Assembly (NCBI RefSeq): GCF_038002225.1
Contig: NZ_JBBOCA010000001.1
Span: forward strand, 6,758,001-6,822,000
Source: Paenibacillus sp. FSL R7-0204
GTDB taxonomy: Bacteria; Bacillota; Bacilli; Paenibacillales; Paenibacillaceae
DNA length: 64,000 bases
Reading direction: 5' to 3'
A model generated the notes under the pieces. It did no database searches, was not told the origin of the DNA, and worked only from the letters and a program-made list of their open reading frames with translations. Positions 13,725 to 58,047 of this stretch are shown here, piece after piece; the stretch's first letter is position 1, and each line of letters begins with the position of its first letter. The translations under genes were made by a program, and so were the position numbers.

Positions 13725-13750
13725 CTTGTCCTCCATCTCGCTTATGTAGT

Positions 13751-13780: not shown

Positions 13781-13809
13781 TTGGGATAGGCCTTTAAAAA
13801 AACAACGGG

Positions 13810-38196: not shown

Positions 38197-39006
38197 TTAT
38201 TCCGCATCCGTGTCCGCTTCCGGGCTTGCGGAAGCGGATGGCTCCGCACTAGGCGCGGCTGTAGCTGTAGCTTCCGGAGCGCTGCCCGGATCTGCCGCCA
38301 GCTTCAGCGAGTATCTTCCGGCGGTGATCATATCGCCTGCCGCCAGCATCGCGCCTGCTGATAGCTCCACCGTAACCTCGTATACGCGTGACGGAGGAGT
38401 TCCCGCCGCCGCTGGAGAGGCGGCGGCTCCACTGTCCGCATCGCCGTCCGCTCCGGCTACTGCTTCACCCTTCGCATCACCGTCTGCTCCGGCACCTGCC
38501 TTACCGCTCGCATCACCGTCTGCTCCAGCACCTGCCTTACCGCTCGCATCGCCGTCCGCTCCGGCACCTGCCTCAGCCTTGGCATCGCCGTCCACTCCGG
38601 CACCTGCCTCAGCCTTGGCACCGCCGTCCACTCCGGCTCCTGCTTCACTCTTCGCATCGCCGTCCACTCCGGCGCCTGCTTCACCCTTCGCATCGCCGTC
38701 CACTCCGGCGCCTGCTTCACCCTTCGCATCGCCATCTGCTCCGGCACCTGCTGCAACCTGGCAACTGCTAACCGTTGCCTTAACCTCGTAGTCCGTAACG
38801 CCGCTGGCGGACTCCACGCCGATTCGCTCCGGCTTGAAGGCGGAGCATTCCGCCGCATCAGTGAAGCTGAACAACAGCTTCACGCCGTTATTCTTACCCG
38901 CTTCTCCGCTTCCCGCGACACCGCCGTTATTCCCGCCAGTCCCTACATCGGCACCGCTATTCCCGCCAATAAGCCGGACAGAGACCGGGGCCGCTACAGC
39001 GGCCCC
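38197..39006 (-). CDS. Repeat-rich extension of the GAP1-N2 protein (frame-shifted continuation) or separate secreted protein
   Basis: An open frame of 269 residues in the -1 frame relative to the GAP1-N2 gene, joining it at a six-G tract (39003-39008). It has no convincing start codon or ribosome site of its own. It continues the Ala/Pro/Gly-rich sequence after the membrane helix smoothly (VSVRLIGGNSGADVG, then a beta-rich segment KLLFSFTDAAECSAFKPERI). Nine copies of a 12-residue Gly/Ala/Asp/Lys repeat follow, then a second beta-rich segment (YEVTVELSAGAMLAAGD). The likely reading is one long protein interrupted by an indel or by slippage at the G tract. Otherwise it is a separate gene with an unusual start. 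Confidence 0.6.
   Translation of the reverse strand, partial: GAAVAAPVSVRLIGGNSGADVGTGGNNGGVAGSGEAGKNNGVKLLFSFTDAAECSAFKPERIGVESASGVTDYEVKATVSSCQVAAGAGADGDAKGEAGAGVDGDAKGEAGAGVDGDAKSEAGAGVDGGAKAEAGAGVDGDAKAEAGAGADGDASGKAGAGADGDASGKAGAGADGDAKGEAVAGADGDADSGAAASPAAAGTPPSRVYEVTVELSAGAMLAAGDMITAGRYSLKLAADPGSAPEATATAAPSAEPSASASPEADTDAE
38425..38748. repeat. 36-bp coding tandem repeat (nine copies)
   Basis: Nine tandem 36-bp units encode variants of GAGVDGDAKGEA. Units differ by a few substitutions. They lie inside the repeat-rich frame and leave long open frames on both strands. Confidence 0.85.
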
Positions 39007-41438
39007 CCGGTCACTGCCGGAAGCGGGCTGGGGCTGACCACCGGCGCGGCTGTATCCTTGCCGCGTCCCCCTAGCTGGCTCAGCAGGATAACCGCCGCAA
39101 TCAGAATGATCCCGAGGATGCTCCCTGAGATCAGGATTTGAAATCGGCTGCGGCTGACCCACCGCGCCAGCGGCGAAGCCAGCTGGGCGCGGGCTTCATT
39201 GTAGACAGTCTGCATAGCAGGCGTTGCTGTGTCGAGATGGTTTTTGCGGAATTCCCGGTTCTTGAACGCCTCGCGGTCGCTCTTCAGGAAATATCTCAGC
39301 ACAGCCCGCTTGTAATTCGGCCACAGCTTCTTGCCAGAGCTTGCGAACAGCCAGCTATGCTGCGACCAGTCCAGGAACCGGTACACCGTCTCCTTGTCAT
39401 TGCCCGCCTTGCGGACCACCAGATCCAGCAGCGCATCATAATCCAGCGGCCCGCCTTCACGTTCACTGCTGTGATAGAAGGCCAGCGGCAGCCGGTCGAA
39501 CGGCTCAAGGCTCCGCGCTTCCTTCAGCCACCGCGCGCCGAGCAGCTGTACATCGTCCAGCTCACGCGGCGTCAGTCCGGCAAAAATCTCCTCGTCCGGC
39601 GACTCCTCCCCGAACCAGCGGTAGGCTGCACGAAGCGCATTCGCTTTGCGCTTCGCAATCGCATCGAGCGGCGGCTGCCAGTCTGCCGTATCCCGGTAAC
39701 GCAGGAACGAGATCTCCAGCAGCTGCTCCATCGTCAGCTCGTCCAGCGAGATCCGGTTCAGCAGGAAGCGGTCAGCAACCGTGCCGAGCTCCTCCATAAC
39801 GGACAAGGCCTCCGGGTATACGCCACCTCTGCGGCGCTGCTTCTCTGCCTGCTGGACCGCTTCATGAACAGCCGTTACCGCCGCTACCGGATCGGATTCC
39901 CGCTGCAGCTTCTCCAGCAGATATTCCTTGAAGGTATCCCGTACCGCTGCCTGCTGAAGCACCTCCGGAAGACTCCGGCCAAAGTGGCCCACGAGGCGGA
40001 GGATATCCGCAGTTCCGGCAGCGGCTGCCAGCCGGGATTCCAGATACGGCTCGAACAGCGCTCTGCGGAAGAGAGATTGGGACAGCACTTTTTTGAAGAA
40101 CGCCTCACTAAGCTCCGCATCGCTCTCAATAATCCCGTAAGCCGCCGCCAGCACATCCTCCCGGCCCCCGGACTGGCAGTTCAGCATCCCGTTGATGAAG
40201 TAATCGACGATCTTTACCCGGTAATTATGGCCCGGCAGCGCGTAATACGCCTTGAACTGTTCCAGGATCTCCGTTGACGGAATCCCCTTCTTGCGGATCA
40301 GATCATATTCGCGGTCGAACCGCTCCAGGAACATATCATTCAGCCGCACCCGCGAGTCCAGCTTCCCCTCCGGCTTCAGATAGGACAACAGGCCGCCGAG
40401 TATAGCGTTCTTGTTATCTGTATATAAGGCTTCGTTGCCTTGCTCAATTTCATAAAAGACCGCCAGCTCATTGTAGAGCGCCAGCGACAGCTTACGGTCC
40501 GCACTCTCCCCGAGCAGCAGGCTGTCGGCAAACTTAGCGAAATCACGGAGGCTTCCGCCCTTCTCCACCAGCGTCTTCCAGGCCAAATCGGCATAGATCT
40601 GCCGCGACTCGCCGAAGTCGGTATTCAGGAACCTTGCCCCTGCCAGATCGAAGATATAATCCTTCTCGATATTCCGGTCACCCGGACGCAGAGAGCCCTT
40701 CTCCACGAAGGTCAGGTGAATATATTTGCGGCTCTGCGGCTCCTTGGCATACGTGATCACTCCCAGCCTGCGGCGGAAGTCATACGGCAGCGCAGCGAAG
40801 ATGACCTCCGTCAGCCGGGCCGCACGCTGCGACAGCTCACTGATGGGTACATCCAGCGCTACATAGATTTTCTTCTTCCCGGCTACGGACAGCATCACTG
40901 CCTGCAGCAGGGCTTTGAACAGCTCTTCTGTGAAGCCTAGACCGGACAACACGCTGCGCGGGTCTGACGGCTCGTCCAGCGGACGTGTTGCCTCAGGAAT
41001 CGAATCCAGTTCAGGCAGTGTCCCACCAGGCTCCCCTTCATAGCTCCGGGCAAACCCCGCATGCAGCCAGTCCCCGTACCCCTCGACAATCTCTTCGGAG
41101 CGGATAGGCGGCACCACGAAATTATGGGCAAAAAAAGCGCTCCGCTGCCCCGTAAAATCCGCCGCCAGATAACGGCTCTCTCCGATCACAGTCTCGTTGC
41201 TCTCCGTATGGAACAGGTGCAGCGCAGGAGGATACAGCTCCTCATCCTTCTCGCCGCGTGCCGTAAGCTCAGCCGGGGCATCGTAGAGGCAGAAGGGATG
41301 CAGGATTTTTTTGACAAAATTATTATCGAGACTCTCCGATTTCGCTACCGTATCGAAGCCCTCTGTCGACCGGTATACGCCACGGCGCTCGCGGGTATAC
41401 ATCTGCTGGGTGATCATGGACCCTGACAATCTGTTCAC
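38994..41438 (-). CDS. GTPase-associated protein 1, GAP1-N2 type, with C-terminal membrane helix
   Basis: An 814-residue protein. The N-terminal 250 residues match the GAP1-N2 pattern I recall from GTPase-associated operons (TQQMYTRERRGVYRSTEG, ILHPFCLYDAP, HNFVVPP). The middle is helical (about 260-760), a single membrane helix follows (ILISGSILGIILIAAVILLSQ, about 768-788), then a Pro/Ser tail and stop. The start is GTG 41438, overlapping the GTPase stop by 4 nt, so the two are coupled. The last codons contain a six-G tract after which another frame continues the protein plausibly. No biochemical function is known to me. Confidence 0.85.
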   Translation of the reverse strand: MNRLSGSMITQQMYTRERRGVYRSTEGFDTVAKSESLDNNFVKKILHPFCLYDAPAELTARGEKDEELYPPALHLFHTESNETVIGESRYLAADFTGQRSAFFAHNFVVPPIRSEEIVEGYGDWLHAGFARSYEGEPGGTLPELDSIPEATRPLDEPSDPRSVLSGLGFTEELFKALLQAVMLSVAGKKKIYVALDVPISELSQRAARLTEVIFAALPYDFRRRLGVITYAKEPQSRKYIHLTFVEKGSLRPGDRNIEKDYIFDLAGARFLNTDFGESRQIYADLAWKTLVEKGGSLRDFAKFADSLLLGESADRKLSLALYNELAVFYEIEQGNEALYTDNKNAILGGLLSYLKPEGKLDSRVRLNDMFLERFDREYDLIRKKGIPSTEILEQFKAYYALPGHNYRVKIVDYFINGMLNCQSGGREDVLAAAYGIIESDAELSEAFFKKVLSQSLFRRALFEPYLESRLAAAAGTADILRLVGHFGRSLPEVLQQAAVRDTFKEYLLEKLQRESDPVAAVTAVHEAVQQAEKQRRRGGVYPEALSVMEELGTVADRFLLNRISLDELTMEQLLEISFLRYRDTADWQPPLDAIAKRKANALRAAYRWFGEESPDEEIFAGLTPRELDDVQLLGARWLKEARSLEPFDRLPLAFYHSSEREGGPLDYDALLDLVVRKAGNDKETVYRFLDWSQHSWLFASSGKKLWPNYKRAVLRYFLKSDREAFKNREFRKNHLDTATPAMQTVYNEARAQLASPLARWVSRSRFQILISGSILGIILIAAVILLSQLGGRGKDTAAPVVSPSPLPAVTGGPL

Positions 41439-42697
41439 GGCCCGTCGCTCCCCTCAATATAATTCAGCTTGTGCAGCAGCCAGATGAACGGCTCATCCAC
41501 CCGGATCGGGCTGACTACGCCTTCCACCTTCTGATTGACTGGATTGCTGCCCAGCGCAGACACGGCGAAATACCCGGTATTGGCAAAATACACATCCATC
41601 GTATCCTTGAACGGACGGTCCACCTTCTCAATGAAGCGCCGGATTTCACCGTCGATGTTGTGGAACTCGTCCAGGTTCAGCGTTTTGCGGTGCACATAGT
41701 TGTTGAACACATTGCTGTTCGACTTGATATAGTCGCCATCCTCATCCTTGAGGGAGTGGAGCATATCGCTTTTGGCCAGGACGACTGCGGTCGGAATCTC
41801 GGTCTTGCTCTTCTCCTGATATGCGATGAAATCACCGAACATGGTCAGCACCACATCACGCGGCTCATCATACTGCGATACCCACTCCCCCGGGCGGTCA
41901 CCGAAGTTAATGCGGATCTTCTCCCGGACCGAACGGATCTGCAGCGGATCGACCATGAACAGAATCCCTGCGGAGTTCTTGATATGCTGGCCGTGCAGGC
42001 CCAGATAATCCTGATCGACCATGCCTTCACCGGCCACATCGAAGAACACCAGCGTCAGCGGGGGCTTGGACTCATCCTTGAACACGAACTGGAAAATAAA
42101 CGGCTCCTGCATCTTCTCCTTCTGGGTAGACGCCAGCAGATCCCCCCGCTCGAACAGCGGCTCCTCATACAGGGTGCGGAATTTGCGGCTGATCTCGGCA
42201 TTCAGCGGCATACAGGCTGCGTCGAAATGTCCTGCCGTTGTATGCTGGAGCGTATGGATCAGCGAGGTCATATAGACAGACTTCCCGACCTGGGAAGCTC
42301 CGATAATCGAGATAATATTGCTAGGCACCTTGCCGGCTGTTACAGGCAGCTCGTTATGGCAGGACGGACAGAGCCGTCTGCGGGTCATCACCCCATAGCG
42401 GTCGGTGAGCCCGGTCAGCACGTTGTCGGTATAATGATGGTACTCCTCCGGGATATCCGCCGGCTGCAGAACCGCTTCCATATCATCCACCGTATCGAGG
42501 CCGAAGCGCTCCCGGTATTTATTCAGCAGATCATCCTCACCGAGCGCATAATTCTCATCATCCTCACGGCTGTGCATGGCCCGGAACACCACTTCCTCCG
42601 GCTCAAAGCGCGTGAAGCAGAACGGGCAGACAATATCGTAATACAGCGGCCTCGCTGCGGGCTGATTCTTCTTCATGAAACGGCTAAAAAAAGACAT
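41435..42697 (-). CDS. Zinc-ribbon TRAFAC GTPase (DO-GTPase2-like)
   Basis: A 420-residue cytoplasmic GTPase. A zinc ribbon is split around an insertion (C24/C27 and C110/C113). The G domain has the P-loop GASQVGKS (133-140), switch II DVAG (220-223) and the guanine-specificity motif AKSD (308-311). The layout fits the Double-GTPase 2 family of conflict or signalling operons, normally encoded with GAP1 proteins as here. GAGGAGGATGAGAG precedes ATG 42697. It is probably a regulated switch recruiting GAP1 to the membrane (inference). Confidence 0.88.
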   Translation of the reverse strand: MSFFSRFMKKNQPAARPLYYDIVCPFCFTRFEPEEVVFRAMHSREDDENYALGEDDLLNKYRERFGLDTVDDMEAVLQPADIPEEYHHYTDNVLTGLTDRYGVMTRRRLCPSCHNELPVTAGKVPSNIISIIGASQVGKSVYMTSLIHTLQHTTAGHFDAACMPLNAEISRKFRTLYEEPLFERGDLLASTQKEKMQEPFIFQFVFKDESKPPLTLVFFDVAGEGMVDQDYLGLHGQHIKNSAGILFMVDPLQIRSVREKIRINFGDRPGEWVSQYDEPRDVVLTMFGDFIAYQEKSKTEIPTAVVLAKSDMLHSLKDEDGDYIKSNSNVFNNYVHRKTLNLDEFHNIDGEIRRFIEKVDRPFKDTMDVYFANTGYFAVSALGSNPVNQKVEGVVSPIRVDEPFIWLLHKLNYIEGSDGP

Positions 42698-42745
42698 CTC
42701 TCATCCTCCTCAGGGTTGTGTCAGCACCCGGTATGCTGCTCCCGC

Positions 42746-43381
42746 TCACTCGGGAACCAGCTCATAATAAGTCCCGTATTTAGGCCCATCGGTGAAAAAA
42801 ACACGGATGAAGTCGTCCTTGCCGACCTCAATCGGCGGGAGCTGGTTGCGCCCGGGAGCGAAGTCCTGGACGAACGGGAACCTTGCACCGTCCTCCTTGG
42901 AGGATGGATGCGCATCCCGCTTTTTGACGTAGCAGAGCACTTCCTTCGGCACCGGCACCTCGGCAGTGATCGTCATCTGCACGGTTTTCAGCTTACTGAA
43001 CAACCCTTTTTTGTGCTGGACCGCGTAGTAGATCCTCGCTTTGCCCGCGCTGACAAGCGCCCGGTTCCCGCCATCCTGCTGGCGGACCAGCAGCGTCTCC
43101 CCATTCTCACTGAGCCGTACGTAAATGGTATAAGCCACCATCCCGATCTCGTCCAGCCGGTCCCGGTACCCGTTATTCGCTTTGTATTCTTCACGCGTGT
43201 AGAGCTTCATGCCCGGAGGCGGATGCTCATGACTGTCCGGCGCCTCCGCAGAGGCCTTATGAATATACACCGCCTGTACACCGTCCGGCCAGCGCCAGCG
43301 CAGCGTACAGAACCGGTCCTCCACTCTGGATACAACTTCGGTAATCACCGGTGCTCCAGCGTCTGCCTCGGCGTACTTCAT
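42746..43381 (-). CDS. Beta-rich protein of the GTPase/vWA cluster
   Basis: A 211-residue soluble protein without signal or membrane segment. Its alternating pattern (ITEVVSRVEDRFCTLRWRWP, YTIYVRLSENGETLLV, TVQMTITAEVPVP) suggests two Ig or fibronectin-like beta-sandwiches. I do not recognise a named family. ATG 43381 is preferred, with AAGGGGAAGG upstream, over 43405, which has no site. It sits between the vWA and GTPase genes with short gaps (30 and 48 nt) and is therefore probably part of the same operon and complex. Confidence 0.78.
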   Translation of the reverse strand: MKYAEADAGAPVITEVVSRVEDRFCTLRWRWPDGVQAVYIHKASAEAPDSHEHPPPGMKLYTREEYKANNGYRDRLDEIGMVAYTIYVRLSENGETLLVRQQDGGNRALVSAGKARIYYAVQHKKGLFSKLKTVQMTITAEVPVPKEVLCYVKKRDAHPSSKEDGARFPFVQDFAPGRNQLPPIEVGKDDFIRVFFTDGPKYGTYYELVPE

Positions 43382-43411
43382 GGCAACCTTCCCCTTTCCC
43401 TGCATCTGGCT

Positions 43412-44683
43412 TTAGAACCCTTTACTGCCGCGGTTACGGCGGGGTGAATGAATACTGTCCGCAGGCGCATTAGCAGCCCCCGCAGCTCTTCCCCGGCGCG
43501 ACAAGCGCCCTTCCCCTACAGGCACGATATATGTGAACAAGGTGAGAATAGCCGCCAGAACGAGCAGCGCCAGCAGCCGGGTCATAGGGTCCCAGAGCGT
43601 GTCGCCGTTCAGGCCGGATTCCAGAATCAGCCCCGCAATAAGTCCCGATACCGCGCCCCCGATGCTGAAGCTCCGGGCCAGATGGCGGTTATCGAACACA
43701 ATGCCAAGGCCCAGACCCAGCGCCGTGCCGAGCAGCATCAATGCAAGCACACGCACCACAGCATAATAAGGGCTGTCCGCCGTCTGGTCGCTGCGCTCGG
43801 TCAGCAGTGTCCGGTCGCCCAGACGGTCATAAATCTGCTGGAATACATCGCCCAGCCGGTTCGCATCGGCCACATCATAATACTGTCCGCCGGTGCTGCT
43901 GGCGATATTCTGGAGCAGACTTGCGCCGGACGGATCATCCAGGGCCAGCCCGATCGTATTTACTTTAATTCCCCGGGCCACATAGTCTGTCAGCTCCGTT
44001 GCGGTATTGAACTGGCTGACACCGTCGGATAAAAGAATAACCATCGCCCCGCGGTCCGCGCCGTCTTCATGAATCACCTTCATCGCTTCGGCCAGCGCGC
44101 CGCTGATATTCGTTCCGCCTTCGGTCGTCTTCAGGCTGCTGATGACCTCCATGACCTTCTCGCGGTTCGCCGCTTTGGAGAGCGGGAGCAGCGGCTGGAC
44201 GACGGAAGCCTTGTTGCTGAAGGTGACTACAGCGACTTTGTTGTCTTTTTTGAGCTGCTGCACCAGATTCTTGGCCGCCGCGTAGCGCCGGTCTGACGGG
44301 TCGCTCTGCGACATGCTGCCGGAATCGTCAATCACCATGACGACATTCTTAACCGGCTTGCTGCCGCCGAAGTTCAGCTCATACACGAACTCGGTCAGCG
44401 TGCCCACGCCAAGCAGCAGCACGACCATGAGCGGGAACATTTTCCATGAGGTGCCCAGATAACGCAGCTTCCAGGACTGTCCGTTCAGCCTCGGTGAGAT
44501 CGTCTCTGCGACCAGAGCGCCTATTCCAACACATAAGGCCACAATGGCAAAATAAATACCGACCAGCACCATCTGAGGTAAATCATACGGCCTGCGGTCC
44601 AGCAGCAGCTCACCGAGCACAAACGCTACACCCGCGCCGAGCAGACTGAACAGCAGCAGGAGCAGATTGATTTTTCGCTGCAT
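43412..44683 (-). CDS. Membrane vWA-domain protein
   Basis: A 423-residue protein. Three N-terminal helices (about 5-25, 37-58, 82-102) precede a von Willebrand A domain (about 112-300), and two or three helices follow (about 313-335, 340-355, 368-388). The metal-ion-dependent adhesion site is intact: D119/S121/S123 in DDSGS, T191 in GGTN and D220 in LSDG. The vWA lies between membrane segments, as in BatA-like proteins. AAAGGATG precedes ATG 44683. First gene after the repeat arrays, so this part of the cluster may have its own promoter. Confidence 0.9.
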   Translation of the reverse strand: MQRKINLLLLLFSLLGAGVAFVLGELLLDRRPYDLPQMVLVGIYFAIVALCVGIGALVAETISPRLNGQSWKLRYLGTSWKMFPLMVVLLLGVGTLTEFVYELNFGGSKPVKNVVMVIDDSGSMSQSDPSDRRYAAAKNLVQQLKKDNKVAVVTFSNKASVVQPLLPLSKAANREKVMEVISSLKTTEGGTNISGALAEAMKVIHEDGADRGAMVILLSDGVSQFNTATELTDYVARGIKVNTIGLALDDPSGASLLQNIASSTGGQYYDVADANRLGDVFQQIYDRLGDRTLLTERSDQTADSPYYAVVRVLALMLLGTALGLGLGIVFDNRHLARSFSIGGAVSGLIAGLILESGLNGDTLWDPMTRLLALLVLAAILTLFTYIVPVGEGRLSRRGRAAGAANAPADSIHSPRRNRGSKGF

Positions 44684-44784
44684 TGCATTTCATCCTTTCC
44701 GGGAAAAGCTTGATCATCACACGCTTCCCCATTCCATTCTATTGCACATCCGGCAGTGGAATGAATGAGAATTGTCCTACAGAT

Positions 44785-45065
44785 GCACTTGTGCTCCTCA
44801 TTTGGTGGGTTAGCGCGCTTTGGCTGAATTTAGGTGCACTAATGCTCTTCATTTGGTGGTTTGGCCAACTTTCGCTAAATTCAGGTGCACTATTGCTCCT
44901 CATTTGGTGATTTAGCACACGTTCGGCGAATTCAGGGGCACTTTTGCCCCTCATTTGCTCGTTTAGCATGCGTCCGGCGAATTCAGGGGCACTTTTGCCC
45001 CTCATTTGCTCGTTTAGCGCGCGCCCGGCGAACTCAGGAGCACTTTTGCCTACACTCACCAGCAT
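44785..45065. repeat. 51-nt-period array, first block (six units)
   Basis: Units starting with GCAC begin at 44785, 44836, 44887, 44938, 44989 and 45040, exactly 51 nt apart. Each carries a CCTCATTTG(G/C)T core, a TTTAGC block and a GAATTCAGG-like block. Identity rises toward the right-hand units. Confidence 0.92.
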
Positions 45066-45068
45066 CAG

Positions 45069-45274
45069 AGGGATTTATCCCTCTCTTTCCGCCATCCGGC
45101 CTACTTTCAGCAGCATTAAAGGGATTTATCCCTCTCCTTCCGCCATCCGGCCTACTTTCAGCAGCATTAAAGGGATTTATCCCTCTCTTTCCCGCCATCC
45201 GGCCCACTTTCAGCAACAGTAAAGGGATTTATCCCTCTCGTTCCTCCATCCGGCCCACTTTCAGCAGCCCATGG
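45069..45274. repeat. 51-nt-period array, second block (four units)
   Basis: Units start at 45069, 45120, 45171 and 45223 (spacings 51, 51, 52). Each contains the palindrome AGGGATTTATCCCT, then CGCCATCCGG and CTTTCAGCAGCA-like blocks. The sequence is unrelated to the adjoining first block although the period is the same. From 45275 to 45435 I see only ATCTCATC-type simple sequence. Confidence 0.92.
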
Positions 45275-45435
45275 TCAGCCGCCGAACTCATGTGGACTAT
45301 AGATCCAGCGGCTATAGCAGCCTGACCATGAATGATATTTTGTCATAGCACTCTATCATCTCATCTCCGCTCATCTGCCCAGCACAGCACTCATCCCGTC
45401 TCCGCTCATCAGCACTAATCACATCTGATCGCCAC

Positions 45436-47862: not shown

Positions 47863-47866
47863 AGGC

Positions 47867-50800
47867 CTACTTCAGCTTTCTGCGGATGCTGCCAAGCTTG
47901 CCGGTCAGGCTCTTGTAGAAGCCGTACATTTCATCTCCGTTGGCATGCTCTACCCGCTCATATTCCAGAGCGTCACGCGCTTCCAGGAATGAGACATACA
48001 TTCCTTCCAGCTTATACAGCAGCGGAGTTACATCTTCAGCTGCGGTCATTTCTCCGGCCCGGCGCGCTGCCTTGCGGAGCAGGAGACTGCGGCTTTTTTC
48101 ATCCAGCTCACGGAAATGGCGGTAGACGGCATACTCCACATAGCTGCGTTCCTTCATCAGATTCGCGAACGGCTCCCAGGCATCCTCGTCCTCGTCGCGA
48201 TCGTAGACATAGAGCGCACCTTTTTTGGTGATGGTATCGGTGTATAGCGCTTCGATGAACTGGTCCAGCCATTTGTCTTCATCCAGATGCTGATGCACCA
48301 GTGCTTCCAATTCCGCAGATTTGGCTGCCAGCGCATCGTATTTCGCCAGCTCCTCACGGACACGGGCAATGAGCTGCGGGGAACGGATCAGGTTCTCCTG
48401 GGCCAGCTCCAGATTAATGCTGCCGAAGATATCCTTCACGGCTTCGCGTTCAAGACCTCCTGTGCGGAGCGCTTTGAGCTCCTCAGCAGCCTTGCGTACT
48501 TCACCAAGATTCGGGCGCGGCGCATCCAACTGCAGATCATAAGCGCCCAGCAGCTTGCCCAGATCCAGCGGCTTCGTGAAAATTACGGAGAAGCGGCTGC
48601 TCGTGTTCTCATCTACACCCTTCTCGATAATCACACCAGACTCCAGCGCCCGGCCGAAATCTGCCCGCACTCTGGCATTGTACTCACGAACCCGTGGATT
48701 CGCATACGTATCACCCCAAGACTTCTCCGGGATCGGCGAAGGCAGATAGGTCCAGTTGTCCTTATCGGTCATCACCAGATGGCGGCCGATGCCTTCCTTG
48801 TCAAGAATGGTCCGCTCGTAGTTCTCCTCGTACACCCGCAGCGGCGTATATACGAACAGCGGCACCCCGTTGCGTGTATTCAGCCAGAAAATCCGGTTCT
48901 TGACCTCGCTCTCCTTGATCGTGAACTGCGATTTGCCCAGCGCATTGTTCTGATAATTCCGCACACCCTTCAGAATCCCCGGCGCCTTCACCGGCACAGA
49001 GACGAAGCCCCAGGATGGGAAGTGCAGACTGCCCGAACTGTTGCTGAGGTGGAAAATCGGCACCGCATCCTCATCCAGACGTCCGGCAATGATCCGCTCC
49101 ACGAACTTATCCAGCGGCTCCTCACGCCCGTATTTCATCACCAGGAAGTCCTCCATTGAACGGGTAATGAGGTCCCCGAACTTGTCGCTGAGGAACTCGG
49201 ATATGGAGCGGACAATATCAATCTCCTGCTCTCTAACCCAGCGCCCGGAATGCTTCAGCATCTCGCGTGTGAAGTCACGGATCAGATCATCGCCGTCCTT
49301 CTGGTCCATGATTTTGGAGATGGTCGCCGAGATATCCGGCACATTGACGATATTCCAGTAGTAGGTTTTGTTGCCCTTGTGGTCTGCCTGCTCTTCGCCG
49401 TTAATCAGAATATCGCCGTTCTTCTCGAAGATCGAGCTGAGCGCGGTCAGAATCTCGGTGAACACACCGTAGATCCGGCTGTTCTCTTCATTCAGCAGCT
49501 CATACAGATCTTCATAGAACTGGATCATCTGTTCGGTGCGCTCCACATCGGCATGCAGCCAGTATTCATTGATTTTGGCTTCAATATAGGCGTTCTTCTT
49601 CTTCTCCTTGGACACAAAAGCGCTTCGCGCATCGCCCAGCTTATCCTCTGCACTCTCCTGTGCGGTCTCAATATCACGCGGCAGGCGCAAGAGACTCTCG
49701 CGCAGCGCTTCAATATAAGACTGGATCAGCTTCAGGATGCAGAAGCCCTTCTCTGTGTACAGCAGCCGCGACACATAGAACGGCCCCTGCTCAGGATGCA
49801 GGAAGATGCGCTCCAGCTCTTCGCCGAAGCGTCCGGCAATCTCGCCGGGAAGCTGCTTCTTGGATTTGATATATTCCTCACGCGCACGGGCCAGGAAGTT
49901 CTGCTCCAGCTCCGTATCCATGCTGACGACCTGATTCTTGACCACGTTCGCATGGCTGAGACGCTCGCTGTTCTGATAGCCCGGCAGCGGCTCCGGCACA
50001 CGGGACTCGAACGTTTTGATCATCGTATCGAGATCAATGCCGAGCTTGCGCGCCATCTTCTCCACATCCTCCTGATTCGGGGCGTGATGGAACATCTTGT
50101 CCATTTTGTCGAAGAGGCGGTAGGCCAGGTATGTTGTCATTTCCTCAATCGGCAGCACGGCCGAGGATGCCCCGATAATGTTGTATTCATAGTTGGCAGG
50201 ATAAGTCTTGTTCATCTGGGCAATGTTCGTGCGGATGTTGCTGATATAGTCATGGATGGCGAATTCCTCGCCGGAGGCCTTCTCTTCACTGGCCATGAAG
50301 TTGGTGATGTTCTCAGCCGTCACGTTCATGCAGTAATCGTAGGCATTCTCCAGCAGCTTGCCCTCCGTATTGGTTGCGGAGATGAGATGACAGAGATTGA
50401 ACGGCGGGAGCGGCGAGTTAACGCTCAGAATATTGCCGTACTTCTGGCGGAAGCGTTCGCCCCGGCTGTCCACGTTCATCCAGTAGTCCAGCTCTTTGAG
50501 CGCGGCATACCCGTTCTTGCGGATATACTCGCGGGTATGCTCACTGAGGCTCTTGTTCGACAGATTGACGTCCGGTGTGAACAGATAGCCCAGCGTATTG
50601 ACACGGTCTATCCCGGCTGCGCCGTAGTCACGTTCAATGATGCCGCGCACGATGTAGGCTATATCCAGAAACGCCCCGCTGCCTGTGCCGCCGGACAGAC
50701 CGGTAAGCAGGAAGACCATGAGCTTCTTGCTGGTGCCGACAGACAGCGTCTTGATCTTCTTGTCGATGGCGGCAACCACCTGGTTGATCTTCGTGAACAG

Positions 50801-51256
50801 CAGCAGGCGTCCGGCCTGGCGCACCCCGGCAGCTCCGTTCATGCCGTCTGTGATGCTCAGCTCCGGCGACAGCCAGTCTGTAATGTAAGAATCCAGGATG
50901 CTGCGGTTCTGCAGCAGTCCGCCGATCTCTGCATTGGCCAGCAGCACGAATTCATTCTGCGGGTCGAGGCCGATGCCCTTGTATTTTTTGCCGCGGTCCT
51001 GTTCATTGGTCTCGAACGCCAGGAATTCCACGTTATCGGGCTTATCCCGCTTCTTCTTGGACAACGGATCTTCAGGCAGCTTGAAGCGGCGGTTAATCTG
51101 GTATTTGAGCCGCAGCAGGGCATCAATGCCCGTGCCGCCAAGCCCGATAATGAGGATCGGGTTATCGATGGTATCCACTCTGATCTTGTCGCTGACGATC
51201 CCTCCGCCAAGCGATACATCCAGCTGTTGAATATGTTCTCTTACTACCGGTTTCAT
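47867..51256 (-). CDS. Large tubulin-like GTPase (Tubulin_2 type)
   Basis: A 1129-residue cytoplasmic protein. The tubulin/FtsZ-like core covers about the first 450 residues: ILIIGLGGTGIDALLRLK (GLGGTG 38-43) and the signature loop GGTGSG at 189-194 (LTGLSGGTGSGAFLDIAY). About 680 further residues, mostly helical and coiled coil, follow. This is far longer than FtsZ or TubZ. A GGGGGAAAA site precedes ATG 51256. It lies between a vWA gene and the tubulin-like paralogue, so polymerisation at or near the membrane is a reasonable but untested idea. Confidence 0.88.
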   Translation of the reverse strand: MKPVVREHIQQLDVSLGGGIVSDKIRVDTIDNPILIIGLGGTGIDALLRLKYQINRRFKLPEDPLSKKKRDKPDNVEFLAFETNEQDRGKKYKGIGLDPQNEFVLLANAEIGGLLQNRSILDSYITDWLSPELSITDGMNGAAGVRQAGRLLLFTKINQVVAAIDKKIKTLSVGTSKKLMVFLLTGLSGGTGSGAFLDIAYIVRGIIERDYGAAGIDRVNTLGYLFTPDVNLSNKSLSEHTREYIRKNGYAALKELDYWMNVDSRGERFRQKYGNILSVNSPLPPFNLCHLISATNTEGKLLENAYDYCMNVTAENITNFMASEEKASGEEFAIHDYISNIRTNIAQMNKTYPANYEYNIIGASSAVLPIEEMTTYLAYRLFDKMDKMFHHAPNQEDVEKMARKLGIDLDTMIKTFESRVPEPLPGYQNSERLSHANVVKNQVVSMDTELEQNFLARAREEYIKSKKQLPGEIAGRFGEELERIFLHPEQGPFYVSRLLYTEKGFCILKLIQSYIEALRESLLRLPRDIETAQESAEDKLGDARSAFVSKEKKKNAYIEAKINEYWLHADVERTEQMIQFYEDLYELLNEENSRIYGVFTEILTALSSIFEKNGDILINGEEQADHKGNKTYYWNIVNVPDISATISKIMDQKDGDDLIRDFTREMLKHSGRWVREQEIDIVRSISEFLSDKFGDLITRSMEDFLVMKYGREEPLDKFVERIIAGRLDEDAVPIFHLSNSSGSLHFPSWGFVSVPVKAPGILKGVRNYQNNALGKSQFTIKESEVKNRIFWLNTRNGVPLFVYTPLRVYEENYERTILDKEGIGRHLVMTDKDNWTYLPSPIPEKSWGDTYANPRVREYNARVRADFGRALESGVIIEKGVDENTSSRFSVIFTKPLDLGKLLGAYDLQLDAPRPNLGEVRKAAEELKALRTGGLEREAVKDIFGSINLELAQENLIRSPQLIARVREELAKYDALAAKSAELEALVHQHLDEDKWLDQFIEALYTDTITKKGALYVYDRDEDEDAWEPFANLMKERSYVEYAVYRHFRELDEKSRSLLLRKAARRAGEMTAAEDVTPLLYKLEGMYVSFLEARDALEYERVEHANGDEMYGFYKSLTGKLGSIRRKLK

Positions 51257-51341
51257 AGGTTTTCCCCCAAAAGTTGTGATAGCCTACGCATCCCGAATCA
51301 CTTCGCATGATTGCTTTGGGAGCGTACGCTTAGCCTGCTTA

Positions 51342-53162
51342 TCAGATCAGATATTCCAGAGAAATCGTCTTGTCTACCGTCTGCAGAGAGACCGTCACCC
51401 GGTCCCCGCTCTTCATCTCCAGGCCCCGCGAGGTATCAGCAGCACGCCCTGAGCGTTCTACAGTAATGCCCTCGCCGCTGCGCAGCAGCAGGCGGTCATT
51501 CGTTCCCGGCGTGAAGACCAGCTTCTCGCTCTCCTTCAGCTCCGGGGCCAGCTGCAGCAGCTGATGAAGCGTGAACTTGCCGCGGAAGCCGGAGAGCTTC
51601 TTGTACTGCGGATAGGTTTTCTCCCCGGTATTGGTATCCAGCACCTCCACCACCATCTGTCCGACGAACCCTCTGTTTGCCTTACTCCGCAGCAGCCAGA
51701 ATGCGGCAGCCGCAGCCAGCAGCAGCACAATGCCGCCGATGATATAGTACAGCGTGTTCGAGGTCTCTTCAGCGGCTGGCTCTTCGCCCGCAGGAGTGCC
51801 TGCTGACGGCGGGGTGGTCGCCACCGTTCCGGTCTTGGCATTGATGGTCAGCACATCGCTCTCCCGATAGAAGCTGCTCTCTTCGGCCCGGACCTTCAGT
51901 TCGTATTCATGATTATCCTTGATTTCAAAAGCACCCTTGAACTCGGCACCCGAGTTATCCAGCGGAATCTCCTGCACCTGGCCGGTGTCCTTATCTGTAG
52001 CCAGCAGCACAGCCTTCATCTCCTGATACAGGCTGCCTTCCGTTACCTCCGCCCCGTTGCTGTACAGATGGGAAGAGATCTCAACCTTGTCGCCTTTGCC
52101 GTAAGACTTGGCGGGCAGGGCATCCAGCTTCAGCTCCAGATCGTAGTTGAATACCAGATTAATATCGATCTTATCCTTCGGCACGCCCTTGACCTGGAGC
52201 TTCCAGTCCCCCTGCTCCGGCGAGAGCAGCTTGATCAGGGTGTAGGTGGACGACTTCGACAGCAGCACCTTATCCGAGGGAATAGCAACTTCCTTGCCGG
52301 AAGGATCGCTCAGCTTCGCCGTCACCGGCTTCGAGGACATAATGGAGATATTCGCTTCCAGCACACTGCTGTTCGGCACGTTCACCGTTACGTCCTGATA
52401 ATCGCCGTTTGCCGTAATGGATGGCACCGGCACCACCTTCAGCTTCAAATGGCTGGCAAAAATCTCGCTGAGAATCTGCGGCAGATCATCGGCGGAATTG
52501 GTAGTGAATGCCTTACCGCCTGTCTCACTGGACAGCCCGGCCAGAATATTCTTGTTCAGCTTGCCGTCTGCATTCAGCCCTATGGTATATACGGGATACC
52601 CCTTCTGCTTGGCAGCCTCTACTGCCGCCTTCAGCTCCTTGTCGGAATCGGACTGCTTCCGGCCGCTGGCTTCATTCAGGTCATTGTTGCCGTCCGCCAG
52701 CATGACGATCATTGGCTCATGGCCGGGATCGCTGCCGTTCTCCAGCACCTTTACCGCCTCTTCCATCCCGACCGCAAGGTCCGTGTAGGGTCCGCGGCTA
52801 AGCCCGTCGATGAAATTCTTCAGATCCTCCTTGTCGCCGGCGGATTTGATGCCGAGCAGCGCCTTCTCGCGCTGCACCTTATCGGTGTAAGCTACAATGC
52901 CTACCTTATCGCCTTGAGTGGACAGCATATCTATGAACATCTTCATCGCTTCATTGGCAATCTTGTTCTTGTCGCTCTTGTTCATCGAGTTGCTGACATC
53001 GATCAGCAGCACAGCGTCGATATGTGAGGGTGCGGCCGAAGCCGCGCTGGCTCGCGAAGCAGCATATGGAGATACAGTGATGCATAAGATCATAAGCAAT
53101 ACAGGCAATATGCGCTGCAGTCTATTCTTGGCCTTGCTGAAATTACGTTCGTTACGAAGCAT
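51342..53162 (-). CDS. Secreted/membrane vWA protein with cytoplasmic tail
   Basis: A 606-residue protein. A signal peptide (about 18-44) precedes an extracellular vWA domain (46-240) with an intact metal site (D55/S57/S59 in DVSNS, T127, D157 in LADGNND). Two beta-rich domains (about 240-465) follow, then a Pro/Thr/Glu linker and a membrane helix (about 474-494). The cytoplasmic beta domain (500-606, LLLRSGEGITVER) may be FHA-like. It could transmit an outside signal to the tubulin-like proteins encoded downstream. GAGGAG precedes ATG 53162. First gene of the minus-strand unit. Confidence 0.88.
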   Translation of the reverse strand: MLRNERNFSKAKNRLQRILPVLLMILCITVSPYAASRASAASAAPSHIDAVLLIDVSNSMNKSDKNKIANEAMKMFIDMLSTQGDKVGIVAYTDKVQREKALLGIKSAGDKEDLKNFIDGLSRGPYTDLAVGMEEAVKVLENGSDPGHEPMIVMLADGNNDLNEASGRKQSDSDKELKAAVEAAKQKGYPVYTIGLNADGKLNKNILAGLSSETGGKAFTTNSADDLPQILSEIFASHLKLKVVPVPSITANGDYQDVTVNVPNSSVLEANISIMSSKPVTAKLSDPSGKEVAIPSDKVLLSKSSTYTLIKLLSPEQGDWKLQVKGVPKDKIDINLVFNYDLELKLDALPAKSYGKGDKVEISSHLYSNGAEVTEGSLYQEMKAVLLATDKDTGQVQEIPLDNSGAEFKGAFEIKDNHEYELKVRAEESSFYRESDVLTINAKTGTVATTPPSAGTPAGEEPAAEETSNTLYYIIGGIVLLLAAAAAFWLLRSKANRGFVGQMVVEVLDTNTGEKTYPQYKKLSGFRGKFTLHQLLQLAPELKESEKLVFTPGTNDRLLLRSGEGITVERSGRAADTSRGLEMKSGDRVTVSLQTVDKTISLEYLI

Positions 53163-53225
53163 AAATAGGGCTCCTCTTGTGTGAAATTAGGCGGATATGG
53201 CAGATCCGTAACGCATAGCTAAATT

Positions 53226-53254
53226 CTGTCAATAGCATGCCATTATGATATAAT
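53226..53254 (+). promoter_or_regulatory. Promoter of the plus-strand part of the GTPase/vWA cluster
   Basis: CTGTCA (53226-53231), a 17-nt spacer and a perfect TATAAT (53249-53254) with an extended TG at 53246-53247. A TTGACA on the minus strand overlaps it (53232-53227) but lacks a good -10 for the divergent gene. Confidence 0.55.
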
Positions 53255-53406
53255 TAAACCTTGTAAACTTCAACATAGTGACCGCTGGACCGGCACTTCC
53301 GCTAGTAACAATCGCCATCCTGAGCCGGATAGACTATTCTAAGTATACGCCGCATTCCTGAATATTTGATTAAAAGACCGTAACCAGAGCAGAAAGGAAG
53401 AGTTCC

Positions 53407-53559
53407 ATGATTACATACGCCATACTCGGGATAACGTTTCTCTATGCTGTGATTCAGATCATTCTATATGCTTCCCGCCAGCGGAAGCCGCTCACCCGTG
53501 AGGATATCGACGAGCGCCTGCTGGCTGCATTGAACGGAGGAGATACGGCCCGTGAGTAA
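53407..53559 (+). CDS. Single-pass membrane microprotein
   Basis: A 50-residue protein with one N-terminal membrane helix (ITYAILGITFLYAVIQIILY) and a charged cytoplasmic tail (REDIDERLLAALNGGD). GGAAGAG lies 7-8 nt before ATG 53407, and its stop overlaps the start of the zinc-ribbon gene by 8 nt, so it is translationally coupled to it. I know no homologue. The charged tail may dock to a partner of the same operon. Confidence 0.75.
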   Translation: MITYAILGITFLYAVIQIILYASRQRKPLTREDIDERLLAALNGGDTARE

Positions 53560-54475
53560 AAAGAAACCGGTGATCTTCCGTCCCTTCAAGGCTCCCCGTT
53601 ACGCCTTCGAAAAGCTGCGCATCTGCCGCCGCTGTCACCGTTACACCGCGCTGGGCGAGGAACGCTGCACCCACTGCGGCCGTGCCTCGCTGGCTCCGGT
53701 AGAGAAGCATGCTGCTTCCTTAGCCGGGCGCAGGGTACAGACCCGGCTGCTCGTTATTCTCCTGCTGACCCTGGCCGGAATCTATTTCGGACAGAATCTG
53801 CTGCAGATGGTATTGTGCGGCGCAGGCGGTCTTGTATTAGCCGGACTGGTCTACTATACGCAGCGAAAAGTTCGGCAGAACGAAAATCTGTATGCGCTGA
53901 ACAAACTGCTTGGCCGTAATATTATCAGCATCAAGGAAGATCTGGAGCTGAACCGCCAGGAAGCCGTGACGGTACTGCGCGAGAATGATGTGCTCGCTTA
54001 TGAGAAGCTGCGCGAGATCTCCGTGCTGCTGCGCGGAGACCGGATCTCCCGCCAGCGCGTCGCCCTGCTGCACGGCTTCCAGCTGCGCAAGGACATGACG
54101 CTGGAGTTGGAGCAGCTGCTGCTGAAGGACTTCGAGCCGCTGCTGGCTGAATATATCGGCGAGATCGCCAGGGTCCGTCCCGAGCTGATCAAAGACCGCA
54201 CTCTGCGCTATGTCAAGAATTACGAGGTGCAGATTCTCGAAATGGATGAGGGATTGGTCATTATGACCGCCGTTGCCAGTGCTGCGGTCCGCATGAAGCG
54301 ATACGCACTGCTCTACTCCGGCATGATCGGCCGCTATGTGCAGGAGCTGCCTAAGGACCGGTTCCTGCGCTTATCCAAACTGATTGCCGCAAATCCCTAT
54401 GAGCCGTGGAACGGCCTGGATGCCAAGGTGGAGGAGATCCGTGAGCTTAAGTACCGCTGGGACCCTGAAGTATAA
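53552..54475 (+). CDS. Zinc-ribbon membrane protein of the GTPase/vWA cluster
   Basis: A 307-residue protein starting at GTG 53552 with GGAGG upstream. A four-cysteine zinc ribbon (CRRC at about 25-28 and CTHC at about 39-42) is followed by two adjacent membrane helices (about 64-82 and 84-102) and a 200-residue helical cytoplasmic domain (NKLLGRNIISIKEDLELNRQ and onward). The DO-GTPase2-like protein in the divergent operon also has a zinc ribbon. I do not recognise a family, and the context suggests a membrane scaffold. Confidence 0.8.
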   Translation: MSKKKPVIFRPFKAPRYAFEKLRICRRCHRYTALGEERCTHCGRASLAPVEKHAASLAGRRVQTRLLVILLLTLAGIYFGQNLLQMVLCGAGGLVLAGLVYYTQRKVRQNENLYALNKLLGRNIISIKEDLELNRQEAVTVLRENDVLAYEKLREISVLLRGDRISRQRVALLHGFQLRKDMTLELEQLLLKDFEPLLAEYIGEIARVRPELIKDRTLRYVKNYEVQILEMDEGLVIMTAVASAAVRMKRYALLYSGMIGRYVQELPKDRFLRLSKLIAANPYEPWNGLDAKVEEIRELKYRWDPEV

Positions 54476-54532
54476 GGTTAGAAGCATACTGCCGCTCTAA
54501 ACCTTATCTATGAAATAAAGGGGCTATATTAT

Positions 54533-56335
54533 ATGACGATCATGCGGGCTATAACCCTGCGGAATATTATGATTATTCTGTGTATTTTGATGCTGCTCCC
54601 GCTGGGACAGAAGGCGCTGGGGATTAAGAATAAGCTGCAGGATGTACAAGAAGCCGGAAAACTGTACGCTGCCGGGGAGCTTATCGCTGCCGAGAACCGG
54701 TACCGCCAAGCAGCGGCCAATCACGCGATTTCCTATAAAGAAGAAGAAATTAATGCAAGACTGGCAGAGCTGGCTCCCATCACGGGCATCCGCAGCAGTC
54801 TAAGCAGACTGTCCTTAACACTTGCGGACCAGCTGACTGTGAAGGATTTCGCAGGGATGATGGAGAGCTATGCTTCACTGCTCAGCCTGAAGAGAAAGTA
54901 TATGACGCCGGGCGGTCCCTATGAAGCCTATTATCGCCAGCTCTCGGCGGATTCAGGCGTCTCAGACAAGATGACCGCCGGGTTCCGGCAGTTCAAGGAT
55001 GAGTATCTGGCCGGACTTGCCGCAGGTTCGTCTAAGGAGTCAGATTCGGGGACGGGCAGCGGCAGTACGGACAGTCTCAAATGGAGCCTGTTGCAGATTC
55101 CGGCAGACTATTACGGGGGAGCCGCCGCCAAGGATAAGCTGCTCGCTGCGAGCTTCAAGGCTCATGATACCGCGAGGCTCAAGGCTCTGGCCGCAGCCGG
55201 AAGCTTCGGGCCTATGCTGGAGAGCGCCCTCTCTATGGAAGAAGCTTATAAGAATCATAGTTATACCGCGCCCTGGCTTAACAAGCAGGTTCAGGAGAGC
55301 GCTTCGCTCATCCTGAACAAGGATCTGGACGGTGACAACACCGCAGCCTTCGCCGGACATGCCGCCCGCTACCGCAGCTATGCGGCATCCGCCGGCATCA
55401 CCAGTTCCAAGGCGCTGAAGCTGATCGATAACAGCATTGCCCGGCTGCTCCGCGAGGGCACGCGCCATGTGCGCGGCGGCCAGTATGCGGATGCCATCAG
55501 GCTCTATGCGGAGCTGGCTCCAGTGCAGGATACCTCCAAGGAGACCGCTGCCGCAACGCTGGCCTGGAACCTGGCCGAGCCGCTCCGGCTGCTGCCGGGC
55601 GGCGAAGTGCAGGGCAGCTACTCCCTTACAGCCTCCGTCACTGATAAGTACGGTGCCAAGGTGGCCGTAGCCGGAGTAGACACTGGCGGCAAGCTGGTCT
55701 ACGCCGAGATGAGCGGGGACGGCACGGTCTCCACCCGGACCGGGGAGGTGATCCCGGGTTCGGGGATGCTGAGCGCTCTTTCTTTTGACGAAGCGTTGTC
55801 TGCTTACTCCGAAGTTCCAGTAGTTGTAGCTAACAGCGGTGAGACTGACGGACGCAGCACCTTCACAGGCTATGCCATCCGGCCGGAGGGAATCTCCCTG
55901 CTGTTCAGCTTCACAGGCAGCAGCTATGAGCTGATGGCGGAGGATGGCTCCATCCGCGTAATGAACACCGATCTGGCCGATGGTGCCGCCGGCAGGACGG
56001 CTATCTTCCGCCAGGTGAACGGGATATATGAATTCTCGGAACTCTATCAGGAGTTCACTTACACGCCTATAGATGCTACACAACTTGAGCTGTTTCCTTA
56101 TGAGAAGGTGATGCTGACCTGCGAGATCTCGATTGACGCTGCCGGAAGAGCCGTCGCCCGTTCGAACGGCCGCTATCTGCTGCTTCAAGGCGAGATAAGC
56201 CAGATTACCGGACTCACCGCAGTCAGCGGCCAGTTCGAGAATGGATACGGCACGGTGGTGACGGAGCTTGGCGAGGAGTCTGTCCCTGTGTTTGTAGTCG
56301 ATTCGATGGGGAGCTTAAGCTTGACGCCGCCTTGA
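54533..56335 (+). CDS. Membrane-anchored protein with helical-repeat and beta-rich domains
   Basis: A 600-residue protein. One N-terminal membrane helix (about 9-28) leads into an extracellular region. About 30-345 are helical and TPR-like in places (AGKLYAAGELIAAENRYRQA), with a Ser/Gly/Thr linker near 165-180. About 355-600 are beta-rich with propeller-like spacing (AVAGVDTGGKLVYAEMSGDG, TFTGYAIRPEGISLLFSF). No family is recognised. AAAGGGG precedes ATG 54533. Last gene of the plus-strand unit, it faces the same compartment as the vWA domains and could be their ligand (inference). Confidence 0.78.
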   Translation: MTIMRAITLRNIMIILCILMLLPLGQKALGIKNKLQDVQEAGKLYAAGELIAAENRYRQAAANHAISYKEEEINARLAELAPITGIRSSLSRLSLTLADQLTVKDFAGMMESYASLLSLKRKYMTPGGPYEAYYRQLSADSGVSDKMTAGFRQFKDEYLAGLAAGSSKESDSGTGSGSTDSLKWSLLQIPADYYGGAAAKDKLLAASFKAHDTARLKALAAAGSFGPMLESALSMEEAYKNHSYTAPWLNKQVQESASLILNKDLDGDNTAAFAGHAARYRSYAASAGITSSKALKLIDNSIARLLREGTRHVRGGQYADAIRLYAELAPVQDTSKETAAATLAWNLAEPLRLLPGGEVQGSYSLTASVTDKYGAKVAVAGVDTGGKLVYAEMSGDGTVSTRTGEVIPGSGMLSALSFDEALSAYSEVPVVVANSGETDGRSTFTGYAIRPEGISLLFSFTGSSYELMAEDGSIRVMNTDLADGAAGRTAIFRQVNGIYEFSELYQEFTYTPIDATQLELFPYEKVMLTCEISIDAAGRAVARSNGRYLLLQGEISQITGLTAVSGQFENGYGTVVTELGEESVPVFVVDSMGSLSLTPP

Positions 56336-58006: not shown

Positions 58007-58047
58007 GGGTTTAGCCCCTTTCTCTATAAGACTATTGCTTGTAGATT

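Follow-up and report, generated by a model that had tools for sequence, protein, structure and literature searches.

In the genome (7.7 Mb) of the soil bacterium Paenibacillus sp. FSL R7-0204 (GCF_038002225.1), a block of genes at positions 38197-56335 of the stretch analyzed here (the window: 64,000 nucleotides, positions 6,758,001 to 6,822,000 of contig NZ_JBBOCA010000001.1) combines two tubulin-like proteins (TUB1 and TUB2), two proteins with a vWA domain (VWA1 and VWA2), a zinc-ribbon DO-GTPase, a GAP1 protein, a further protein (FN) and the plus-strand membrane proteins STM, ZNR and BET. The block forms one unit, its genes occurring together in related genomes beyond chance. Tentatively, we explain it best as a resident chromosomal machine of the envelope, which serves surface organization or adhesion rather than the killing or blocking of phages.

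In the proposed model, TUB1 would bind GTP inside the cell via its intact tubulin loops and, together with TUB2, which is devoid of the GTP loops, would build a scaffold or polymer at the membrane. The zinc-ribbon DO-GTPase and GAP1, the latter equipped with a predicted membrane helix, may constitute a switch that permits or ends this assembly. VWA1 and VWA2 would present metal-dependent vWA domains (metal ion-dependent adhesion site, MIDAS) outside, and their membrane helices, extended by a cytoplasmic tail in VWA1, would connect them to the inner scaffold, with STM, ZNR and, in some species, BET completing the membrane complex. Through such a complex, recognition of a putative ligand in the wall, S-layer or matrix would be coupled to local assembly of the inner scaffold, a direction of signaling and an output that we infer.

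One unit of two divergent operons

Co-occurrence was assessed in samples of the order (198 genomes from 43 genera), the genus (96 genomes) and the phylum (398 genomes), and gene order in the 20-kb loci of 58 relatives with TUB1 as well as in a second set of 80 named loci that has some overlap with the first. The Pfam family Tubulin_2 is found in 106 of the 198 order genomes, GAP1-N2 in 105 and both in 104, as judged by matching the lists by eye; about 56 would be expected under independence if relatedness is ignored. Exceptions to the pairing are G033 and G174, which have Tubulin_2 only (partial or weak), and G135, which has GAP1-N2 only. The two operons hold nine large open reading frames (ORFs) and a small one, with the reading order VWA1-TUB1-TUB2-VWA2-FN-DO-GTPase-GAP1 on the minus strand and STM-ZNR-BET on the plus strand. 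This order, (BET)-ZNR on one strand and VWA1 to GAP1 on the other, is kept in 57 of the 58 loci, the exception (L053) being at a contig edge, and in 76 of the 80 named loci, the remaining four being cut by contig ends. TUB1 itself is present in 90 of the 96 sampled members of the genus.

A sequence-only reading of the window, which this analysis followed up, had described a set of two tubulin-like proteins, two vWA proteins, a GTPase and its GAP1 partner with three plus-strand membrane proteins, and had connected Tubulin_2, DO-GTPase2 and GAP1-N2 with parts of it. Pfam matches to all three families were obtained, the six named genes are present, and the three membrane proteins can be counted as such when STM is included. 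The same reading had suggested a neighborhood search across Firmicutes and named a lack of co-occurrence in other genomes as evidence that would speak against it. They do co-occur, but in one order and not across Firmicutes, since Tubulin_2 is found in 14 of the 398 phylum genomes, 7 of which belong to the window's own family.

A tblastn search (E 1e-3) recovers STM from 68 of the 80 named loci, and a candidate short ORF is seen in 53 of the 59 loci made up by the 58 relatives and the window. BET is accessory: over 139 loci (the 58 relatives, the 80 named loci and the window), 46 carry a BET ORF, 40 more are recognized by a BET hidden Markov model (HMM), and 53 reveal BET neither by ORF nor by HMM, a few of the latter ending too early upstream. 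In L116 and L147, two extra ORFs are inserted between BET and ZNR in an otherwise constant operon.

In the 389-bp gap between VWA1 and ZNR, two promoter-like sites have their -10 elements overlapping head to head (Table 1). Three promoter-like sites occur in the scanned region, compared to a mean of 0.5 in shuffled sequences. The core of the minus-strand site, TTTAATTATATCAT, has a single copy in the window, in L038 and in all but one of 25 same-genus loci (24/25); it is absent from the remaining 33 loci examined.

All nine large genes are under purifying selection according to gene-wide ratios of nonsynonymous to synonymous substitution (dN/dS), which were calculated against the window copy for seven relatives (five of the seven for the GTPase and FN). 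The ratios are lowest for the GTPase (0-0.047) and TUB1 (0.019-0.048), followed by VWA1 (0.032-0.106), VWA2 (0.044-0.140), TUB2 (0.064-0.139), FN (0.070-0.140), ZNR (0.077-0.164), GAP1 (0.083-0.222) and BET (0.154-0.251). Median protein distances, based on 40 to 52 sequences per gene, are 0.24 for TUB1, 0.29 for the GTPase, 0.45 for VWA1, 0.52 for FN, 0.53 for VWA2, 0.58 for TUB2, 0.62 for ZNR, 0.68 for GAP1 and 0.72 for BET, with 0.11 for the marker RpoB.

Trees of 46 taxa were compared for TUB1, TUB2, VWA1, VWA2, GAP1 and ZNR, with RpoB and UvrB (control) as markers. The six cluster genes share 27-32 of 43 splits among themselves, with 0-5 supported conflicts, an agreement that is partly expected from linkage. 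They share 15-18 splits with RpoB and 16-18 with UvrB, while the control comparison of UvrB with RpoB gives 19 shared splits and conflict in 4 of 20. The block, including genes of both strands, thus has one history, which is farther from RpoB and UvrB than these markers are from each other.

Anatomy of the encoded proteins

Transmembrane (TM) helices, signals and sidedness were predicted from hydropathy, the STM helix being judged by eye, and Pfam cut-offs were 24 bits for GAP1-N2 and GAP1-M and 27 bits for DO-GTPase2, Tubulin_2, DZR_2 and GBD_Hemicentin. Coordinates are collected in Table 1.

Table 1. Features of the gene block and their positions in the window (aa, amino acids)
Feature	Positions	Strand	Description and basis
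ORF with GAP1 tail	38197..39162	-	Tail in another frame; GAP1 frames of relatives continue into such a tail
Tandem repeat	38437..38759		36-bp unit, nine copies, in GAP1 tail
GAP1	38994..41438	-	GAP1-N2 141.8 bits, GAP1-M 91.2 bits (Pfam)
DO-GTPase	41435..42697	-	DO-GTPase2 28.3 bits (Pfam)
FN	42746..43405	-	219 aa; assigned the FNIII place of Kaur et al. from position and order
VWA2	43412..44683	-	vWA with DDSGS MIDAS-type motif, preceded by three TM helices and followed by two (Pfam, hydropathy)
TUB2	45436..47862	-	Tubulin-like paralogue with a long helical middle part; T1 and T4 loops absent
TUB1	47867..51256	-	FtsZl1/Tubulin_2 GTPase domain at about aa 32-366, 252.5 bits (Pfam)
VWA1	51342..53162	-	vWA with DVSNS MIDAS-type motif (Pfam, hydropathy)
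Promoter-like site, plus-strand operon	53226..53254	+	CTGTCA-17-TATAAT with preceding TG, 10/12 (scan and alignment)
Promoter-like site, VWA1-to-GAP1 operon	53245..53273	-	TTGAAG-17-TATCAT, 9/12 (scan)
STM	53407..53559	+	50 aa, single TM helix, tenth gene; its end overlaps the ZNR start
ZNR	53552..54475	+	CxxC pairs at the N-terminus, two TM helices and a C-terminal region; in 57/58 loci
BET	54533..56335	+	One N-terminal TM helix, large predicted outside part; accessory

The GTP-loop motifs GxGG[TAS]G and GGTG[SAT]G are both present in 66 of 66 TUB1 sequences and in none of 70 TUB2 sequences, which confirms the suspicion, voiced from the window's letters, that the second tubulin-like protein is a paralogue without nucleotide loops. 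TUB1 is constant in length: the 66 aligned sequences, 59-88% identical to the window copy, measure 1129 aa in 55 cases, 1130 in ten and 1131 in one, and share invariant residues D336 and N311. Within the genus, 87 of the 90 copies align over aa 1-1129 as one segment, and that of G220 as two segments in one frame. The relatives of the window retrieved by sequence search belong to Paenibacillus, P. silagei being the closest named one among the matches listed (TUB1 at 100%). Past its GTPase domain, TUB1 continues with long helices and a mostly helical C-terminal part without assigned fold. A fold search beyond aa 366 gave no clear family; this segment was not folded separately, so that it provides no evidence for a new fold. 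A T7 catalytic loop placed by eye on conserved columns of TUB1 was dropped, the model being poor in that region, and no claim is made for it. The profile of TUB1 yields two matches to PDB sequences, with E 0.15 or worse. TUB2 matches Tubulin_2 with 17.5 bits, which is under the cut-off, and the profile homology between TUB1 and TUB2 is weak (hhalign E 0.0045, probability 7.7).

Candidates for TUB2 relatives that keep the loops were discarded: Pfam finds no Tubulin_2 in the genes that follow TUB1 in L156 and L158, and assigns the 830-aa ORF of L155 to the clostripain peptidases. L155 thus carries a clostripain-family peptidase gene (12486-14975) close to a distant relative of TUB1. In NCBI and UniRef, the records of many TUB2 homologues bear the label 'transcription initiation factor TFIID', which looks like a propagated mis-annotation since the TUB2 model and the gene context are tubulin-like. 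A TUB1 relative filed as Yersinia pestis (P0231) sits on a 25.6-kb contig amid Paenibacillus sequences, and this record is most likely contaminated or mislabeled. Between TUB2 and VWA2, two arrays of 51-bp tandem repeats span window positions 44780-45268, one with the hairpin AGAGGGATAAATCCCT; the genome contains 20 exact copies of this 16-mer, which are distributed over six places and mostly spaced by 51 bp. The 108-aa ORF at 44739-45065 is not considered a gene, as it lies within a tandem-repeat array and has matches in 4 of 58 loci.

The DO-GTPase combines CxxC pairs (C24/C27 and C110/C113) with a P loop (GASQVGKS at aa 133) and an AKSD motif at aa 308. All 19 aligned sequences, that of the window among them, match DO-GTPase2 at E of 0.01 or below, and the four cysteines and the P-loop residues G138, K139 and S140 are invariant in this set. 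A profile search against PDB sequences gave a single match (E 0.0067). GAP1, the presumed partner of the DO-GTPase, has a long C-terminal part and, close to its C-terminus, a single TM helix (aa 768-786). In 10 of 12 relatives compared, a single frame runs through this helix into a polar, repeat-rich tail, the length of which varies among close relatives; the GAP1 frame measures 976-1095 aa in all 26 further genomes of the genus in the order sample and 819 aa in the window, where it ends shortly past the helix while the tail goes on in another frame. Consequently, the ORF at 38197-39162 is better read as the out-of-frame GAP1 tail than as a gene of its own. A run of G is located near the break, which may be a real frame split, phase variation at this run or an assembly error. 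As the split lies past the TM helix, the recognized GAP1 domains are intact in the window. GAP1 stops close to the TM helix in L056 and L057, which lack a tail, and the tail therefore appears dispensable on the time scale of their divergence. G135 (L060) presents another arrangement, in which GAP1-N2 occurs without tubulins, accompanied by a GTPase and by another GTPase-like protein that has five TM helices.

VWA1 is predicted to consist of a signal or TM segment, the vWA domain, beta-rich stretches, a TM helix (aa 473-491) and a cytoplasmic tail of about 115 aa that shows conservation across the order, with a mean column identity of 0.67. The vWA domain of VWA2 is predicted to be outside if the N-terminus is inside, and DxSxS is kept in both vWA domains. 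At E up to 1, GBD_Hemicentin is matched in 20 of 20 VWA1 sequences (best 8e-7) and MG2 in 13 of 20 (best 3.5e-5). YtkA is absent from the 11 families listed for the window VWA1 and from 25 of the 47 families over the 20 sequences, and profile matches of VWA1 to PDB sequences are confined to the vWA part. FN, ZNR and BET match no Pfam family above the cut-off. No FnIII match was obtained for FN in 31 sequences at E up to 1, nor any match in a profile search against PDB sequences; ZNR has a weak DZR_2 match (15.2 bits), and BET has three matches to PDB sequences with E 0.17 or worse. CmoA, a vWA protein on which the colony movement of Paenibacillus sp. NAIST15-1 depends according to the available text of its description (PMC5072692), has 1,064 aa with vWA and IPT/TIG domains; no cluster protein is of that size and make-up, and CmoA was rejected as a member. 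Strain NAIST15-1 carries the cluster (L112).

The genes beside the block are inconstant neighbors, for which reason neither aroB and wecG (upstream) nor the SLH gene (downstream) is counted as part of it. Next to the cluster, at 56864-58797, a gene for a dehydroquinate-synthase-like protein and one for a WecG/TagA-type glycosyltransferase overlap. Downstream (35050-37215), an SLH-domain protein has weak squalene-cyclase-like and DUF4430 matches, and its family follows GAP1 in 9 of 59 loci, window included.

Envelope machine, immunity or membrane remodeling

The sequence-only reading had proposed an envelope-spanning signaling or defense assembly with a cytoskeletal element. The envelope-spanning part fits the predicted anatomy and the co-occurrence of the genes, but the combination was already in print (PMC7159879), and the tubulin family had earlier been named FtsZl1 (PMC2875224). 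The defense part corresponds to the biological-conflict role that Kaur et al. (2020; PMC7159879), in the passages at hand, predict for the GAP1-N2 set on comparative grounds. In such an immune system, vWA and FNIII proteins would sense an invader, the DO-GTPase and GAP1 would act as a threshold switch and tubulin assembly would stop the invader or the cell. We consider this unlikely, yet a serious contender, because immunity predicts variable effectors, mobility and patchiness, whereas the cluster has a constant set of genes, is under gene-wide purifying selection and occurs in 90 of 96 members of the genus. Patchiness is indeed seen, with 15 of 43 genera in the order, while the flanking genes vary from one species group to another and the trees suggest transfer between genera, both of which keep a defense function in play. 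In addition, GAP1 and BET are the fastest-evolving genes, and BET is limited to some species. Against it, PADLOC-DB 2.0.0 recognizes no family at E up to 0.01 in nine of nine cluster proteins (STM and the ORF at 38197-39162 were left out, and flanking genes were outside the scan), and the reading as a defense island was discarded, as was that of a plasmid or phage element, with no TUB1 match in 72,556 plasmid and 50,697 phage records. Gene exchange is not seen except for the loss of BET, the 12 of 80 loci in which STM is undetected and the insertion in two loci, and selection is purifying in all nine large genes, FN included, although these ratios are gene-wide averages only. The presence in most of the genus, the constant content except BET and the strong constraint shift the odds somewhat away from immunity.

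A machine for membrane remodeling or vesicles, in which TUB1 filaments would bend or cut the membrane under regulation by vWA proteins and GTPase, is rather improbable in our view. It goes back to Makarova and Koonin (2010; PMC2875224), whose available text proposes membrane remodeling for operons of the FtsZl1 family, and the FtsZl1-like TUB1, which has long helices and whose C-terminus is mostly helical, lies in an operon with vWA and GTPase genes as described there. Pfam recognizes no membrane-bending part in the cluster. Moreover, the objection of a referee printed with that paper, that the vWA proteins are outside and FtsZl1 inside, fits trans-membrane coupling equally well, and it is answered in the envelope-machine reading, where the predicted membrane helices of VWA1, VWA2, GAP1, STM and ZNR give a possible route across. 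Finally, the out-of-frame GAP1 tail could mean that the cluster is a non-functional relic in this genome, or the genes might be mere neighbors; both are most improbable. Co-occurrence contradicts unrelated genes, and the order fixed in 57 of 58 loci, the concordant trees and the low dN/dS speak against either. A relic would be expected to have a broken TUB1 or GTPase, both of which are open in the window, while the GAP1 domains are intact and GAP1 ends near the same point in the distant L056 and L057.

The proposed envelope machine for surface organization or adhesion has to be weighed against a number of observations. Structure models are modest, with a predicted local distance difference test (pLDDT) of 67.3 and a predicted template modeling score (pTM) of 0.38 for TUB1 and a pLDDT of 70.2 and pTM of 0.52 for TUB2, and Foldseek alone returns nothing below E 0.001 for the TUB2 model. 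The hemicentin-like match of the window VWA1 (20.7 bits) is sub-threshold and MG2 is not listed for it, so that a matrix-like reading of VWA1 is a lead; its tail, the proposed link to the scaffold, is 50% identical to that of L057 but 15% to that of L156. TUB1 is missing from 6 of the 96 genus members and broken in 2 of the 90 copies (G236, G246); it is split over two ORFs in L045, TUB2 and GAP1 each consist of two ORFs in L049, and two distant relatives have VWA1 and TUB1 but no detectable GTPase or GAP1. Tubulin_2, and likewise GAP1-N2, is patchy in the order (15 of 43 genera each), and flanking genes vary between species groups. Supported splits of the cluster genes disagree with RpoB in 6-9 of 24-30 cases and with UvrB in 4-9. 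Of the genera with at least two members, RpoB recovers 8 of 9 and UvrB 6 of 9, compared to 5 of 9 for TUB1, TUB2 and GAP1, 4 of 9 for VWA2 and 3 of 8 for VWA1 and ZNR; g26 and g36 are recovered by both markers and missed by all six cluster genes. Given these conflicts and unrecovered genera, the block has probably been passed between genera at times.

Comparison with known systems

The kind of system is already known, the gene set since 2020 and FtsZl1 since 2010. No experimental study of the cluster is found in the literature searched (subscription journals being largely outside its scope and bioRxiv preprints not included), and to that extent the earlier statement that no function has been demonstrated still stands. 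The Firmicutes GAP1-N2 form, in the passages of Kaur et al. (2020; PMC7159879) that describe it, comprises two tubulins, two vWA proteins, a zinc-ribbon DO-GTPase and a GAP1 with a polar C-terminal extension. The cluster shares the zinc-ribbon DO-GTPase, GAP1-N2/M, two tubulin-domain proteins with a C-terminal coiled coil (TUB1 and TUB2), two vWA proteins, one of them multi-TM with its vWA outside (VWA2, by hydropathy), and the polar extension (10 of 12 relatives; out of frame in the window). It may differ in that the other vWA protein of that system is fused to YtkA, where VWA1 has weak hemicentin- and MG2-like matches instead, and in that the place of the FNIII-repeat protein is taken by FN with no FnIII match; nor was a variable effector seen. 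As for the hallmarks of conflict given in those passages, effectors that vary strongly among close relatives contrast with a set that is constant within the order except for BET, which lowers the case for a conflict system and not the membership in this gene set. A mobile neighborhood contrasts with the lack of TUB1 matches among plasmid and phage records and with the presence of TUB1 in 90 of 96 genus members, yet the patchy distribution, varying flanks and marker-discordant trees agree with it. The STM-ZNR-BET operon, the shared promoter region and the loss of the GTP loops in TUB2 are without mention in these passages.

With the FtsZl1 family (Tubulin_2, PF13809), as far as described in the accessible parts of the defining paper (Makarova and Koonin, 2010; PMC2875224), TUB1 shares an FtsZ-like N-domain with GTP loop, a coiled coil and a mostly helical C-terminus, and the operons share vWA and P-loop GTPase genes, sometimes with a Cys-rich domain. 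In contrast, no OmpA-like or protein-kinase domain is among the Pfam matches of the cluster, which has a loop-less second tubulin-like paralogue. Tubulin_2 was set aside as divergent in a 2023 phylogeny of FtsZ and tubulin, according to the part of it at hand (PMC9871819). The present analysis adds the loop loss in 70 of 70 TUB2 sequences opposite the loops in 66 of 66 TUB1 sequences, the constant length of TUB1, the dN/dS values, the lack of TUB1 matches in plasmid and phage records and the overlapping promoter-like sites. Two differing published guesses exist, membrane remodeling and immunity, and the wide presence, the constant content except BET and the constraint of the set in Paenibacillus make the question testable in a culturable genus.

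Tubulins are known to work as pairs, as in BtubA/BtubB and alpha/beta tubulin. Similarly, neighboring genes of the cluster encode two tubulin-fold proteins with a possible paired action, but TUB2 is without both loops, and TUB1 and TUB2 each carry hundreds of extra residues. This asymmetric pair, one partner with loops and the other without, predicts a specific biochemical experiment.

Integrin-type adhesion connects an outside MIDAS vWA domain through a membrane helix to an inner cytoskeletal protein, with a small GTPase as switch. By convergence, the cluster could be a bacterial counterpart, in which outside vWA/MIDAS receptors are tied to a scaffold of GTP-binding and GTP-blind tubulin-like proteins under a GTPase/GAP1 switch; we regard this as quite improbable, and the comparison is an analogy of working with no homology claimed beyond the widespread vWA domain. 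If true, Paenibacillus and its relatives would have in this cluster a resident organ for attaching to surfaces or sensing the wall.

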